64,000 bases of DNA from the NCBI GenBank assembly GCA_004010935.1, contig CP026511.1:4154001-4218000 (forward strand). Reading direction: 5' to 3'. A model generated the notes under the pieces. That model saw nothing but the letters and a program-made list of their open reading frames with translations. It was not told the origin of the DNA and ran no database searches. A program made the translations under genes and the position numbers. Below, in pieces: positions 1,202-47,271 of this stretch. How positions within the stretch are numbered: the stretch's first letter is position 1; each line of letters begins with the position of its first letter. This DNA comes from Pseudomonadaceae bacterium SI-3 (lineage in GTDB: Bacteria; Pseudomonadota; Gammaproteobacteria; Pseudomonadales; Pseudomonadaceae).

Positions 1202-3290
<2,089 letters not shown>

Positions 3291-37957: not shown

Positions 37958-40633
37958 ATGAAAATACATACCGATGCCGCCAGCCGTTTGGCGACCGAGG
38001 TTGTGACGCAGTTGCCAGTGCCTTCGAGGCTGGGCATGCTGCGCTTCGAGCGTTTGAATGAATCCAGCTGGGCGCTGCTGTTTCTAGACCCTGCCTGCGA
38101 ACGTTATCTAGGCCAGCCCGCGCAGGATCTCTGTTCCCTGATCGACTCGCCTTACGCCAGCCTCATGGAACCGCAGGTTCGCCTTAAGCTTCATGACGTT
38201 GTGCAAGCCCAGCTCGCAACGCTGGGCCACTATTCCATCCGGTATTGCCTGCACACCTGCGGTGGGCCGTTGGATATGTTGGAAATCGGTGAACTCTGCC
38301 AGCAGTATGGTCGAGATCTGGTCCGCGGCTACCTGATTGTCGAACCCCATGCAGCGGAAGCCTCCCCTGCGCTGGAAGCCGAAAATGCGAAGCTGCGGTC
38401 GACCCTGGAGTTTTATCAGCAGGCCCAGGATGAGCACCTCGAACACCTGATCCGCTCCCGTGCGCAGCAGAGTCTGATTGTGCGCCTGGCCCGGCACCGG
38501 TACAGCGCAGCCGACCCGCAGCTCGAGGCCGCCCAGCTGATCACCCAAGCCGCCAGCGAAGCCTACGGGATAGCACGCGCGTCGATATGGCATTTGAAGG
38601 GTAATCATCTAGAAGCCATCGCCGCCTACTGTCGCGATAGTGGCAGCCTCGAATACCCCTCATCGTTGGAAATGTCGGGCTGTCCGCGTTATATGGAGGC
38701 GCTGCACAGGGGGCGAGTGATCGATGTGCAAAACATCGCCGAAGACGCCCGGACCGTGGAACTTGCGCAAGCTTTTTTCAAACCACGGGGTATCACGTCG
38801 ATCCTTGACGCAACGATACGGGTTGGTGGTGAGGTGTTTGGCGTGCTCTGTCTAGAACACTCCGGTTGCGTCAGAATCTGGCATGCCGACGAGGTGGCGT
38901 TCGCTGGTGAACTGGCCGATCAGTATGCGCAGGTGCTAGCCAATCAGCAGCGCGTCAGTGCGACTTACACATTGCACCTCTTCCAGCGCGCGGTCGAACA
39001 GAGTGCTAGCGCGTTCATCCTGGTCGATCGTGATGGCATCGTCGAGTACGTGAATCCGAGCTTCACCTCTATCACTCAGTTTTCAGCCGATGAGGTCCGG
39101 GGCCGTCGCCTAGCCGAGCTTACCGCCTTGGAAAACCTCAGCGAATTGCTGTTCGATACCTCGTCGGCCTTGTCGCAGAGCAACAGCTGGCAGGGTGAAT
39201 TTCGCAGCCGCCGAAAGAATCTTGAGCCCTACTGGGGGCAGTTGTCGATTTCCAAGGTGTTCGGTGAGAGCGGTGAACTCACGCACTACATCGGCATTTA
39301 CGAAGACATCACGCAGAGCAAGTTGGCGCAGCAGCACATCGAGCGCCTGGCCTATACCGATAACCTGACCAGCCTCGGAAATCGGCCGTTTTTCATTCGC
39401 AGCATCGAAGAGCGCTTCGCCACCAACAAAGAACCGCAGCTGTGTTTGTTGCTGGTGGACATCGACAATTTCAAGCGCATCAATGACAGTCTTGGACACC
39501 AGACCGGCGACAAATTGCTGGCCAGCCTGGCTCGGCGTCTACGCAATAGCCTCAACCGAGACAGTGTGCTTGCACGCTTCGCCAGCAACGAGTTCGCCCT
39601 CCTGCTCGACAACATGGACCTGGAAGAAGGCCGGCTCCTGGCGCATCAAGTGCTGCGCATCCTCGACAAACCCCTGTTCGTCGACAAACAGCTGATCAGC
39701 GTCAGCGCCTCCCTGGGCCTGGCCTGTTCGCCGCTGCATGGCCGCGATCCCGAGACGCTGATGAAACACGCTGGCCAAGCCCTGCATAAAGCCAAGGCCA
39801 ACGGCAAGAATCAGGTCCAGGTGTTTACCGAAGCCTTGCACGCCGAGGCCAACTACAAGCTATTCGTCGAAAACAATCTGCGCCGTGCGCTGGTGCAGAA
39901 TGAGCTAGAAGTCTTCTATCAACCCAAGCTCTGCCTGCGCAGCGGTCGGCTGCAGGGACTGGAAGCGCTGCTGCGCTGGAACCACCCGGAAAAAGGCATG
40001 ATCCGCCCTGACCAATTCATCGGCGTTGCCGAGGAAACCGGGCTGATCATCCCGATAGGCAAGTGGGTAGCACGGGAGGCCTGTCGAATGGGCCTGCAGC
40101 TCGCAGCGCTGGGCATCGGCAATCCCCAGGTCGCGATCAACCTGTCGCCCAAACAATTTTCGGATCCCGACCTGGTCGGCTCAATCGCCGCCATTCTTTC
40201 CGAAGAGCAGCTACCACCCGACCGTCTTGAGCTGGAGCTGACTGAGAGCCTACTGCTCGAAGCGACCGAAGAGACCCGCCAGCAACTGATAGGGCTTAAG
40301 GCACTCGGGGTCACCCTGGCAATGGATGACTTCGGTACCGGTTATTCGTCGTTGAGCTATCTGAAGAAATTTCCCATCGATGTAATCAAAATCGACCGCA
40401 GCTTTATCAAGGACATCCCGGACAACCAGGACGATATCGAGATCACCTCAGCCGTTATCGCCATGGCCCGCAACCTCAATCTCAAGGTGGTTGCGGAAGG
40501 TATCGAGACAGTAGAACAACTGACCTTCCTACGCCATCAGCGCTGCGATATCGGGCAGGGTTACCTGTTCGACAAGCCCATCCCCGGCGACCAGCTACTG
40601 ACCTCGCTACGCCGATACCCGCACTGGCTCTAA
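37958..40633 (+). CDS. dipA: c-di-GMP phosphodiesterase, GAF-PAS-GGDEF(degenerate)-EAL (DipA-type)
   Basis: 891 residues. Order: an N-terminal sensory region (about 1-125), a short coiled coil, a GAF domain (about 180-340), a PAS domain (about 345-460), a GGDEF domain (about 465-625) whose signature is ASNEF in LARFASNEFALLL, and a full EAL domain (about 640-885). The EAL domain keeps LEALLRWNHPEKG, NLSPKQF, LELTESLL, DDFGTGYSSLSYLKKFPID and VVAEGIET. The catalytic set therefore predicts c-di-GMP hydrolysis without synthesis, as in P. aeruginosa DipA/PA5017, which is also next to msrA. Soluble, no membrane segments. Confidence 0.9.
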   Translation: MKIHTDAASRLATEVVTQLPVPSRLGMLRFERLNESSWALLFLDPACERYLGQPAQDLCSLIDSPYASLMEPQVRLKLHDVVQAQLATLGHYSIRYCLHTCGGPLDMLEIGELCQQYGRDLVRGYLIVEPHAAEASPALEAENAKLRSTLEFYQQAQDEHLEHLIRSRAQQSLIVRLARHRYSAADPQLEAAQLITQAASEAYGIARASIWHLKGNHLEAIAAYCRDSGSLEYPSSLEMSGCPRYMEALHRGRVIDVQNIAEDARTVELAQAFFKPRGITSILDATIRVGGEVFGVLCLEHSGCVRIWHADEVAFAGELADQYAQVLANQQRVSATYTLHLFQRAVEQSASAFILVDRDGIVEYVNPSFTSITQFSADEVRGRRLAELTALENLSELLFDTSSALSQSNSWQGEFRSRRKNLEPYWGQLSISKVFGESGELTHYIGIYEDITQSKLAQQHIERLAYTDNLTSLGNRPFFIRSIEERFATNKEPQLCLLLVDIDNFKRINDSLGHQTGDKLLASLARRLRNSLNRDSVLARFASNEFALLLDNMDLEEGRLLAHQVLRILDKPLFVDKQLISVSASLGLACSPLHGRDPETLMKHAGQALHKAKANGKNQVQVFTEALHAEANYKLFVENNLRRALVQNELEVFYQPKLCLRSGRLQGLEALLRWNHPEKGMIRPDQFIGVAEETGLIIPIGKWVAREACRMGLQLAALGIGNPQVAINLSPKQFSDPDLVGSIAAILSEEQLPPDRLELELTESLLLEATEETRQQLIGLKALGVTLAMDDFGTGYSSLSYLKKFPIDVIKIDRSFIKDIPDNQDDIEITSAVIAMARNLNLKVVAEGIETVEQLTFLRHQRCDIGQGYLFDKPIPGDQLLTSLRRYPHWL

Positions 40634-40727: not shown

Positions 40728-41375
40728 ATGACCCTGCGCTCGCAAATTCTCGTTCATAAACAAGCGCTACCCGATGCAGGACAAGCCCTGCCCGGACGCG
40801 CCACGCCAGTCCCGGTACCCGCAGCTCACTTCGTCAGCGGTAACCCGCTGCAGCCCCCTTTCCCGGAGCACCTGCAGCAGGCGATGTTTGCAATGGGTTG
40901 TTTCTGGGGGGCCGAACGCCGCTTTTGGGAGCATCCAGGTGTATGGACTACCGCGGTGGTCTATGCCGGAGGGCACACGCCAAACCCCACCTACGAAGAA
41001 GTCTGTTCCGGTCTTACAGGGCACACCGAAGCCGTGCTGGTGGTGTTTGACCCACAACAGATTTCTTACGACGACCTGCTCAGGCTGTTCTGGGAGGCGC
41101 ACAACCCGACCCAAGGCATGCGCCAAGGCAACGACATCGGCACCCAGTATCGCTCGGCAATCTACTGCTTTAGCGCCACGGAACTCGAAATGGCGCGCGA
41201 TAGCGAAGCGCGCTTCCAGACAGAGCTGAACAAGCACGGGCTTGGAGGCATCACCACGGAAATCGCCGACCTACCGGCTTTCTACTACGCAGAGGCCTAT
41301 CACCAGCAATATTTGGCGAAGAACCCTGGCGGATACTGTGGCCTTGGAGGCACAGGCGTCTGCATGCCAGCCTGA
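40728..41375 (+). CDS. msrA: peptide methionine sulfoxide reductase A
   Basis: Reduces S-methionine sulfoxide. 215 residues with the nucleophile Cys58 in [11 protein letters not shown] and C-terminal resolving cysteines in [14 protein letters not shown]. The N-terminal 50-residue extension with [15 protein letters not shown] is that of the long pseudomonad/E. coli form. It lies 94 bp after the DipA-type gene. A TTGGAT-17-TAGGCT pair at 40666-40694 might be its promoter. Confidence 0.96.
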
Positions 41376-41580
41376 AAACTGCACTGCGTCGATGCTGGGG
41401 CTAATCAGACGCTAGGGGAGGCAAGCACAGCCTACTCATGTCTTTTGCGGTGGCGTTGCGCCCGGACAGCTTCCCCAGCTTGTCCGCGCTCCGCCAACTT
41501 CATCTGGATCGAGCCGCAAAGCCGCCGCGGCACACAGACATCCATCTACCGGCCCGTAACGCCTGGCTTCTCTGCCCTTT

Positions 41581-41710
41581 AAAAAGAAAACCCCGCCGAA
41601 GCGGGGCCTTTGCAGACTGAAACTGACATCCGTGACTTACGCCTTCCTAGCGTCGTTCCGCTACGCGTCCGTTTTGTGTCTAAAGCGCTTCCCTACGCGG
41701 CGTCCATGGC
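41581..41710 (-). ncRNA. candidate Rsm-family (RsmX/Y/Z-like) regulatory RNA
   Basis: About 125-130 nt on the minus strand. Six GGA triplets, centred at 41704, 41691, 41669, 41658, 41646 and 41630, have ANGGA-like contexts (TAGGGAAG, ACGGACG, GCGGAAC, TAGGAAG, ACGGATG). Several fall in predicted hairpin loops, for example TAGCG-GAACGA-CGCTA. The 3' end is CCCCGC-TTCG-GCGGGG followed by TTTTCTTTTT (41581-41606). A GacA box is centred about 65 bp upstream of the estimated start; the 5' end near 41710 is set by a weak TAGTCT -10 at 41717-41722. Such RNAs sequester RsmA/CsrA. Which paralogue it is cannot be told. Confidence 0.78.
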
Positions 41711-41765
41711 GGCAAAGACTACCGATCGGCCTGGAAAACCTGTAGTAGCAGTTCGCACCACGGCT

Positions 41766-41783
41766 TGTAAGCATTCACTTACG
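41766..41783 (-). promoter_or_regulatory. GacA upstream activating sequence
   Basis: On the plus strand TGTAAG-CATTCA-CTTACG, 11 of 12 bases of the GacA consensus TGTAAG-N6-CTTACA. It lies upstream of the Rsm-like RNA on the minus strand at the expected distance. A weaker copy, TGTAAG-CAATTG-ACTACA, is at 41808-41825. Confidence 0.8.
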
Positions 41784-41914
41784 CACGAACCCTGCCTTGG
41801 TCCCGCGTGTAAGCAATTGACTACAAGCGATGCAGATCTATGACTGAACTGGTGGCGCATTGTTCCCTAAAGATGGCTAATTAATTTCATTATGCCTTCA
41901 CGGATGGATCTCTC

Positions 41915-43693
41915 TTAGAACTGCGCAGCATCGAGCAGATACAACGATTCGCTGCCGGCTCGGACCGAGGCGCTCAACGAGTGAATGCGAGGCAACAGAC
42001 GTGCGAAATAAAACCGCGCTGTGCCGAGCTTGCTGGCGTAGAAATCGTCTTGCTTTTCCTTGCCCAGCGCGGCTTCTGCCATTCTCGCCCACATATAGGC
42101 GTAGGCCGTGTAACCGAACACATGCAGGTATTCGACCGAGGCCGCGCCGATCTCGTTAGGGTTGCGCTTTGCGCTATCGATGACGAAGGCTGTGAGTCCA
42201 TCGAGACTCTCCAATGCCGCCTTCAGTGGAACAGTGAACTCACCAAGCTCACTGCCCGCAGCCGCACAGTAGCTTCGGATTTCCTCCGCAAACGCGTTGT
42301 ACAGCTCGCCACCACTGCCCACCACCTTGCGTCCGAGCAGGTCCAGCGCCTGGATGCCGTTGGTGCCTTCGTAGATCTGGGTGATCCGACAGTCGCGGAC
42401 CAGTTGCTCCTGCCCCCACTCCCGGATGAAGCCGTGGCCACCGAAGATCTGCTGACCATGGACAGTGGTTTCCAAACCCATGTCGGTGAGGAAGGCTTTG
42501 GCCACCGGCGTCAGCAGAGCCACCTGCGCCTCGGCACGCTGACGTGCTTCGGCATCATCACCGAACTTGGCGATGTCCAGCTGCAGGGCGACATAGCTGG
42601 AGAAGGCGCGCCCGCCTTCGTTCAGCGCTTTCATGGTCAGCAGCATGCGGCGCACGTCTGGATGCACGATGATCGGATCGGCGGCCTTGTCTTGCGATAC
42701 CGGCCCCGTCGGAGCGCGGCTCTGGATGCGCTCACGGGCGTACTCGATGGCACTCTGGTAAGAACGCTCGCCGGTGGAGAGCCCTTGGATGCCAACGCCC
42801 AGACGCTCGTAGTTCATCATGGTGAACATGGCGGCCAGTCCCTTGTTGGGCTCGCCGACCATCCAGCCCGTGGCGCCGTCGAAGTTCATCACGCAGGTGG
42901 CTGATGCCTGGATACCCATCTTGTGCTCGATGGAGCCGCAGCTCAGGCTGTTGCGCTCACCCAGGCTGCCGTCTTCATTGACCATCACCTTGGGCACCAG
43001 GAACAGCGAGATACCGCGCGAGCCGGCCGGTGCGTCGGGGAGCTTGGCCAATACCAGATGGATGATGTTATCGGTGAGATCGTGCTCGCCGCCGGTGATG
43101 AATATCTTGGTGCCGCTGACCTTGTAAGAGCCATCCGCCTGAGGCTCCGCCTTGGTTCGGATGATGCCCAAATCGGTCCCGGCGTGGGGCTCGGTCAGGC
43201 ACATGGAACCGGACCAGACACCGGCATACATGTTTGGCAGGTACTTCTGCTTCAGCTCTTCGCTGGCATGGGCGTAGATTGACAGGCAGGCTCCGGAAGT
43301 CAGCATTGGGTAGAGACCGAACGCCAAACTGGCAGAGTTCATCATTTCCTCGACCTGCGCCGAGATCGCTTTCGGCATGCCCATGCCGCCGTAGGCTGGG
43401 TCGCCGCCTACACCGACCCAGCCGCCTTCGGCGTAAAGGCGGTAGGCCTCTGGGTATCCAGCCGGAGTGGCTACCACGCCGTCGACCCAGCGACAGCCTT
43501 CCTCGTCACCGCTGCGGTTGAGCGGTGCGATGGAATTCGCTGTGATCTTGCCGGCCTCCTCGAGGATGGCTTCGGCGGTTTCCGCATCAACGACTTCCGC
43601 CAACGCTGGCATCGTCTGCCAGAGCTTCGGGGCGTCGAAGACTTCATTTAGGACGAAACGCATATCGCGCAGGGGTGCTTTGTAGTCAGCCAT
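41915..43693 (-). CDS. acyl-CoA dehydrogenase, long (about 600-residue) type
   Basis: 592 residues, first of three paralogues in this region. Acyl-CoA dehydrogenase N-terminal, middle and C-terminal domains plus a C-terminal extension typical of this family. Flavin/substrate motifs are MCLTEPHAGTDLGIIRTKAE and GTKIFITGGEHDLTD; the catalytic Glu is in [20 protein letters not shown]. The start [18 protein letters not shown] is shared by all three. Catalyses the first dehydrogenation of fatty acyl-CoA with FAD; chain length unknown. It ends 205 bp upstream of the Rsm-like RNA, in the same orientation. Confidence 0.93.
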   Translation of the reverse strand: MADYKAPLRDMRFVLNEVFDAPKLWQTMPALAEVVDAETAEAILEEAGKITANSIAPLNRSGDEEGCRWVDGVVATPAGYPEAYRLYAEGGWVGVGGDPAYGGMGMPKAISAQVEEMMNSASLAFGLYPMLTSGACLSIYAHASEELKQKYLPNMYAGVWSGSMCLTEPHAGTDLGIIRTKAEPQADGSYKVSGTKIFITGGEHDLTDNIIHLVLAKLPDAPAGSRGISLFLVPKVMVNEDGSLGERNSLSCGSIEHKMGIQASATCVMNFDGATGWMVGEPNKGLAAMFTMMNYERLGVGIQGLSTGERSYQSAIEYARERIQSRAPTGPVSQDKAADPIIVHPDVRRMLLTMKALNEGGRAFSSYVALQLDIAKFGDDAEARQRAEAQVALLTPVAKAFLTDMGLETTVHGQQIFGGHGFIREWGQEQLVRDCRITQIYEGTNGIQALDLLGRKVVGSGGELYNAFAEEIRSYCAAAGSELGEFTVPLKAALESLDGLTAFVIDSAKRNPNEIGAASVEYLHVFGYTAYAYMWARMAEAALGKEKQDDFYASKLGTARFYFARLLPRIHSLSASVRAGSESLYLLDAAQF

Positions 43694-45864: not shown

Positions 45865-47202
45865 CTAAGCGTCGGTGGTCACCTCTTTCAACGTACGCAT
45901 TGCACCGCGGCGGTTCTCCCCATGCGCGCGGATGCAGTTACGCCCCGCTCCCTTGGCGCTATAGAGCGCCTGATCGGCCTTCTTAATGACCTCCTCGGGG
46001 CTGCGCTGCGTTATCAGTCGCTCGGCGACGCCGATACTGATGGTCACCGAGACCGCGGCTGCCGAAGCAACACCGCGGCGCTGCCGCCCCTGCTCCGCAT
46101 CCTTTGGCCGGCTGGACTTGTCACGCAACTGCAACGGATAACTCTCGACAGCCTGCCGTACGGCTTCCAGATGCGGCAGGCAATGCGTCAGATCACGCCC
46201 CGGAAATACCAACGCAAATTCTTCACCACCGTAACGATAGGCACGCCCACCGCCACCAACTTTGCGTAGCCGGCTTGCGACGAGGCGCAGTACCTCGTCA
46301 CCCACGTCGTGCCCATGGGTATCGTTGAAGGCCTTGAACCGATCCACGTCGGCCATCGCAATCACGTATTGACGGCCCAGACGCTGCAACCGCTCGTTAA
46401 GAGCACGACGGCCAGGCAGGCCGGTCAGCTCGTCACGGAAAGCCATCTGATAGGCCTCTTGTGCAATCGAAACCACCAGCACCAGCATCATCAAGCTGCT
46501 CAAGACGTTGAGTGCACCCGGACGACTGAATACCTGCGGCAGCATCAAGAACAGCCCTACCAGCGCAACCAACTGCGCCGCATGCACTGGTCGAGGCCGC
46601 CGTAGGTATTGCGCCAGCACTCCGAGTATCGCGATTAGAAATACTGGATAGGCCAGCTGGATCAATTGCAGCCAGTCGGCCTGCAATGACGGCCAGCGAA
46701 TCTCAGTCAGCCAGTCGAGCACACCCACGGGGAAGCGTCGCGCCAGAGCCAGCGCCAAGACCGACACAACAAACACAACAGCAAGCCGTGCCAGACCGTC
46801 CTGCAACAGATGTGCACGCTCTTGCCAAAGGGCATAGAGCCCATAGAGCGCCGGCAAAATCAGGCTACACAGGTGGAAGGTCAGCGCGGCCTCTGGCAGT
46901 AGCGAGCCCGTGAGCCGGTAGTGATCGACCTGGGTATCGAGTAGGAAATAGACGATATAAACCGTCAGCAGCAAAAAGGTCTCACGGACCCGGCCATAGG
47001 CGATGCAGAAGGCCCCCCCGAGCAACAGCAGCACGGTAGGCAGCACGTTGAACAGCGAAGTGAAGAACTCGTTCAGGGTAGGTTGACGCGCAGCCACAAG
47101 CCCTCCGGTCAACAACGCCAGGGGAGCATAGAAATGACTGAAGCGAGCAGGACTCAGACGGGGCACGGCGGCTCCGGTAACGGCCGTGAGGAAAGTAGGC
47201 AT
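45865..47202 (-). CDS. membrane-bound diguanylate cyclase
   Basis: 445 residues from ATG 47202 (MPTFLTAVTG); a GTG nine codons upstream is possible. About seven to eight hydrophobic segments occupy residues 25-260, then a GGDEF domain with RDELTGLPGRRALNERL, MADVDRFKAFNDTHGHDVGDEVLR and an intact active site YRYGGEEFALVFPGR. A region rich in Lys/Arg/Ser (KSSRPKDAEQGRQRR) interrupts the domain after the active site. No RxxD inhibitory site is obvious. Makes c-di-GMP. Sits between two acyl-CoA dehydrogenase genes, an order I do not recall from P. aeruginosa. Confidence 0.9.
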   Translation of the reverse strand: MPTFLTAVTGAAVPRLSPARFSHFYAPLALLTGGLVAARQPTLNEFFTSLFNVLPTVLLLLGGAFCIAYGRVRETFLLLTVYIVYFLLDTQVDHYRLTGSLLPEAALTFHLCSLILPALYGLYALWQERAHLLQDGLARLAVVFVVSVLALALARRFPVGVLDWLTEIRWPSLQADWLQLIQLAYPVFLIAILGVLAQYLRRPRPVHAAQLVALVGLFLMLPQVFSRPGALNVLSSLMMLVLVVSIAQEAYQMAFRDELTGLPGRRALNERLQRLGRQYVIAMADVDRFKAFNDTHGHDVGDEVLRLVASRLRKVGGGGRAYRYGGEEFALVFPGRDLTHCLPHLEAVRQAVESYPLQLRDKSSRPKDAEQGRQRRGVASAAAVSVTISIGVAERLITQRSPEEVIKKADQALYSAKGAGRNCIRAHGENRRGAMRTLKEVTTDA

Positions 47203-47271
47203 TCTGCCTGCACTTGGTGACAGGTTCACCTATAGGGGTGCAAAACAATGACTGGCATGGCGGAAAACAGG

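Follow-up and report, generated by a model that had tools for sequence, protein, structure and literature searches.

An ordinary RsmY small RNA locus with a putative second GacA box kept across most of Stutzerimonas

Judged by its sequence, the minus-strand locus analysed here is the RsmY orthologue itself, ordinary as a small RNA and in its usual chromosomal place, and its promoter carries, 42 bp upstream of the GacA box already recognized, a second GacA-like box (41808-41825) that the initial annotation had overlooked. This second box is best described as a modest promoter variant, kept across most of the genus, with a putative role. Coordinates within the window, by which we mean the whole 64 kb stretch of DNA analysed, and those of the three rsmX copies are collected in Table 1.

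Table 1. Features of the window and the rsmX copies of the same genome
Feature	Position	Strand	Basis
thiC	1202-3142	minus	NCBIfam NF006763 over cut-off
msrA, peptide methionine sulfoxide reductase	40728..41375	plus, convergent with rsmY	PF01625; TIGR00401 above cut-off
Intrinsic terminator hairpin and U-run, RsmY 3' end	41587..41610	minus	Rfam alignment and minimum-free-energy fold
RsmY small RNA, six GGA	41587..41707	minus	RF00195 model, 121 nt; GGA count
-10-like TAGTCT	41716..41721	minus	sequence; TA.TCT in the 90% consensus of 55 aligned genus promoters
Proximal GacA box CGTAAG-N6-CTTACA	41766..41783	minus	11/12 half-site positions
Distal GacA-like box TGTAGT-N6-CTTACA	41808..41825	minus	10/12; half-site control; genus conservation
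Acyl-CoA dehydrogenase gene, upstream neighbour of rsmY, marks usual site	41915..43693	minus, same strand	Pfam
Three RsmX, on locus L105	2923-3031, 5261-5370, 5848-5956	minus in own genome	RF02144

Only two Rfam matches over cut-off were found in the window, RsmY and a TPP riboswitch. The RsmY match (minus strand, 41707-41587) is full length, spanning positions 1-121 of the 121 of the RF00195 model with a score of 76.4 bits, where the gathering threshold is 57 (E 2.6e-16 in the scan of the 64 kb window), and is the sole RF00195 match over cut-off in the whole genome (4.84 Mb, one contig, C1), whose genus we take to be Stutzerimonas. The initial annotation had read here an Rsm-family small RNA, one of the RsmX/Y/Z group preceded by a GacA box of its own, naming the covariance models as a check, and this is borne out by the RF00195 score and by a box matching at 11 of 12 positions. 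It had also put the RNA at about 125 nt with six GGA, in agreement with the 121 nt of the model and our count of six, and had described the terminator correctly, as a CCCCGC-TTCG-GCGGGG hairpin followed by a U-run that ends at 41587. Its view that several GGA lie in small hairpin loops holds in part: of the two of six GGA scored in the minimum-free-energy fold, the second occupies a hexaloop and the first the unpaired 5' tail. The single-sequence fold is itself unremarkable against dinucleotide shuffles (z -0.70; 47 of 200 shuffles equally or more stable). The TPP riboswitch (RF00059; 3186-3292, minus, 84.8 bits) lies directly upstream of thiC, a standard arrangement, and weak Rfam matches nearby (istR, mir-8303, rimP, Leu_leader, TCL6_1), all below their gathering scores, were taken as chance or terminator hits. 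A distant search of a plasmid collection with 41540-41860 gave no match, records very near the host genome possibly having been excluded.

Over the whole genome, Rfam gave five Rsm RNAs over cut-off, one RsmY, one RsmZ and three RsmX, and because the last two kinds lie elsewhere the locus is the RsmY orthologue. RsmZ (RF00166; 90.2 bits) maps to C1:1441500-1441635, the only match listed in that search and hence none at the RsmY locus, while the three RsmX (RF02144; 91.9, 76.2 and 63.0 bits) fall within about 3 kb on the minus strand at C1:4552922-4555955, and the five places listed in the RsmX search, run at E up to 0.01, do not include 41587-41707. RsmX and RsmZ are thus of the same functional class and in the same genome, but belong to different families and places. 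The alternative that the locus is not RsmY and instead represents a further, new paralogue resembling RsmX or RsmZ derives some appeal from the likeness of the Rsm families, the three rsmX copies scoring 41-43 bits with the RsmY model (cut-off 57). We consider it highly improbable and rejected it after the whole-genome RsmY, RsmZ and RsmX searches, given that no other RF00195 match exceeds the cut-off, that rsmZ and the three rsmX are accounted for at other sites and that the flanking gene is common to the RsmY of other Pseudomonas. Of the 'RsmX/Y/Z paralogue' first proposed, the Rsm kind therefore survives and the extra paralogue does not.

RsmY is conserved throughout the genus, being over cut-off in 56/56 genomes (RsmX, 46/56), and in 108 of 148 genomes of the family; at E 0.001 or better the family count rises to 141/148, some of the best matches possibly being other Rsm RNAs. 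The match in the present genome, although full length, scores 76.4 bits compared with up to 128.8 in several other family genomes. In one genus of the family (g6; G138, G145 and G157) the RsmY model gave nine, eleven and ten matches, with two or three over cut-off among the matches listed, and in this lineage Rsm-like RNAs appear strongly amplified.

The chromosomal setting is shared widely. The acyl-CoA dehydrogenase gene was matched at 55/55 rsmY loci of the genus, and an msrA match lay within the fetched stretch at 49 of the 55, a count that includes partial matches and the window itself. Among 80 named loci (the best 80 of at least 587 relatives of the dehydrogenase, P. aeruginosa not being among the 80), a profile of RsmY sequences placed RsmY downstream of the dehydrogenase gene, on the same strand, in 56, so that the neighbourhood is not unusual; some of the 24 loci without RsmY lie at contig ends or hold a second dehydrogenase gene from a strain already listed. 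The dehydrogenase-adjoining site is thus a common place of RsmY in Pseudomonas, and we rejected the reading of an unusual location. The initial annotation had contrasted the site with that of rsmZ near rpoS in P. aeruginosa, a comparison with a different gene, which in this genome has its own place as given above. In 43 of the 56 named loci with RsmY, the RNA starts 91-134 bp after the dehydrogenase gene, compared with 201-213 bp in the six Stutzerimonas loci. The locus is also flanked by a gene for a GAF-PAS-GGDEF-EAL protein (37958-40633, plus; the 'dipA' of the initial annotation) and by one for a GGDEF protein (45865-47229, minus), in which the domain match falls into two separate stretches; both are c-di-GMP genes, as predicted from their domains.

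The regulators expected to act on and through RsmY have homologues in the genome. A UvrY/GacA homologue is encoded at C1:2460783-2461415 (59% identity, 257 bits; next best, 140 bits), and one PF02599 match represents CsrA/RsmA in a search for that domain, divergent homologues such as RsmN falling outside its scope. A weak RF00195 match (C1:2456905-2457024, plus, 28.5 bits, below cut-off), situated some 4 kb from the gene of the UvrY/GacA homologue, is probably due to chance.

At the promoter, the GacA box of the TGTAAG-N6-CTTACG type first noted was found at 41766-41783 as TGTAAGCATTCACTTACG, which on the RNA strand reads CGTAAG-N6-CTTACA, with one mismatch from the consensus, and lies 59-76 nt upstream of the RsmY RNA; the weak -10 element noted with it corresponds to the -10-like TAGTCT read at 41721-41716. 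Across the 55 genus promoters, 54 have a best proximal score of 11/12 or 12/12. Taken alone, the box is not rare by count: the pattern occurred in the window, at up to three mismatches, 10 times compared with 9.5 expected, and genome-wide, at up to one mismatch, at 2 places compared with 5 for the reversed control pattern. Both of these genome-wide places are rsm promoters, those of rsmY and rsmZ.

In this genome the distal box departs from the consensus in its left half, TGTAGT, which matches at 4/6 positions. Among the Stutzerimonas promoters (55 of the 56 genomes, leaving aside G022 and the second RsmY match of G005, on C31), a distal box of at least 9/12 was present 38-42 bp upstream of the proximal one in 50, at a spacing of 41 bp in 32, 42 bp in 15, 40 bp in 1 and 38 bp in 2, and one of at least 10/12 in 48; base-shuffled promoters reached 10 in 5 of 11,000 cases. 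Mean identity over 42 distinct two-box promoters was 0.857 in the distal half-sites, a value that is partly circular because these promoters were selected by their score there, compared with 0.512 in the spacer and 0.433 and 0.398 in the flanks. Since the members of the genus are related and their promoters hence are not independent samples, other palindromic half-sites were scored at the distal position as a second control. TGTAAG gave a mean best score of 10.36 over 47 distinct promoters, taken without selection by score, compared with a best of 9.17 for 600 sampled half-sites (TGTAAG excluded), reached by one that differs from TGTAAG at a single base, and of 8.28 for its 89 other permutations. 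Because 5 of the 55 promoters score below 9, the distal box is not indispensable; three of them (G012, G013 and G052) score 8/12, and as the other two (G009 and G024) score 5/12, with no box-like sequence there, any effect of the box is likely to be quantitative.

Outside the genus, a match of at least 9/12 at -121 to -111 was found in one of 49 family promoters (29 best scorers and 20 chosen by genus from the 148 genomes searched), that of L203 in genus g11 (10/12 at -119). Elsewhere in this set, a 9/12 match in L051 precedes the box by 29 bp, the proximal match of L202 reaches only 8/12, and in three promoters of genus g17 the only match lies 273-287 bp upstream. In the named set, the distal box is shared by all six Stutzerimonas loci, which are already within the genus set. 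Of the 50 RsmY loci from outside Stutzerimonas, some of which overlap the 49 (L177 is L051, and L186 is L049), not one shows a second match 38-42 bp upstream; that of L177, at 9/12, lies at 29 bp. The rsmY of P. fluorescens, P. koreensis, P. brassicacearum and other Pseudomonas thus shares the dehydrogenase neighbour and a proximal box near -76 with that of Stutzerimonas, but is without the second box at this spacing.

Nor does the tandem box appear, by what was seen at rsmZ and at the rsmX copies of this genome, to be a general feature of the Gac promoters of the genus. At rsmZ (30 loci fetched, 3 too short) the best box lies 181-191 bp upstream in 27/27, unlike the RsmY proximal box at -76; five loci (L213, L214, L218, L227 and L239) have a weaker second match of 9-10/12 at 23 bp downstream of the main box, and one of the 27 has a second box-like match at -109. 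Two of the three rsmX copies show no match of at least 8/12 within 300 bp, and the third has two 8/12 matches, at -72 and -249. The UAS and linker of the rsm promoters have been the subject of earlier work. In the literature covered (main texts of papers free of subscription), we found no account of a pair of GacA boxes at rsmY, and none is given in the accessible portions of PMC2375449, PMC4353343, PMC7911923, PMC7366521, PMC8249394 and PMC2904497.

Other explanations of the distal box can be weighed against these data. It might be a leftover of a promoter-region duplication, without present function, and its left half-site has indeed drifted in part of the genus (to TGTAGT or TGTAGC), besides the five promoters in which it scores low; we nevertheless regard this as unlikely, given half-sites conserved well above spacer and flanks in the 42 distinct promoters, a spacing of 41-42 bp in 47/50 and the finding that TGTAAG fits the distal position best among all half-sites tested. 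Less likely still is that the box serves as the UAS of a second upstream start, at about -41, yielding a longer RsmY, rather than as a helper of the main promoter. With the main box at a nearly constant distance from the RNA, about 76, the start belonging to a box at -117 would indeed be expected near -41, but by eye no -10-like element is conserved at the position required, and the conserved block nearby, GCTACTACAGG, sits further downstream. Equally improbable in our estimate is a role for another response regulator of the same DNA-binding family, which would bring a second signal to rsmY: several further regulators of this genome match UvrY over nearly the whole length, but both boxes resemble the same half-site and nothing points to another protein.

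RsmY has been described in a close relative, P. stutzeri A1501, a different strain, and presumably a different species, from the present one, and the small RNA found here is thus in itself ordinary. According to the accessible portion of PMC8249394, which concerns the same gene, A1501 RsmY and RsmZ bind RsmA with Kd of 55 nM and 320 nM, mutation of GGA abolishes RsmA binding by the A1501 RNAs, and expression of both RNAs is strongly down in a gacA mutant; the same portion suggests that no additional Rsm RNAs act in A1501 biofilm activation, and a table in PMC7911923 gives P. stutzeri 'A150' (so printed) two rsmX in tandem. By analogy with A1501, GacA dependence and RsmA binding may be expected for the RsmY of the present genome; that its own rsmY copy is transcribed, and that the distal box has any function, we infer.

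Taken as a whole, the data are best explained by a Stutzerimonas rsmY that is activated by GacA, through the proximal and by inference the distal box, and whose RNA sequesters RsmA, an account we hold with high confidence. Phosphorylated GacA would bind the proximal box at -76 and also, perhaps cooperatively, the distal box at -118, on nearly the same DNA face, and so activate a sigma-70-type rsmY promoter. The resulting RNA of about 121 nt would end at its own terminator and present several GGA motifs, and its sequestration of RsmA would relieve RsmA-repressed mRNAs. A distance of about four helical turns between the boxes suggests that two GacA dimers sit on almost the same side of the helix, and we tentatively propose, at somewhat less than even confidence, that in the two-box promoter of Stutzerimonas two dimers act together and make the dependence of RsmY on GacA phosphorylation steeper than it is with one box, as at the rsmY of other Pseudomonas. 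As a small RNA RsmY is known, and its finding here adds little. If the two-box reading is true, one arm of the Gac/Rsm switch would have been retuned genus-wide. The conserved double box offers a natural comparison, with the same RNA and the same regulator and one box against two, for the study of promoter activation by GacA.
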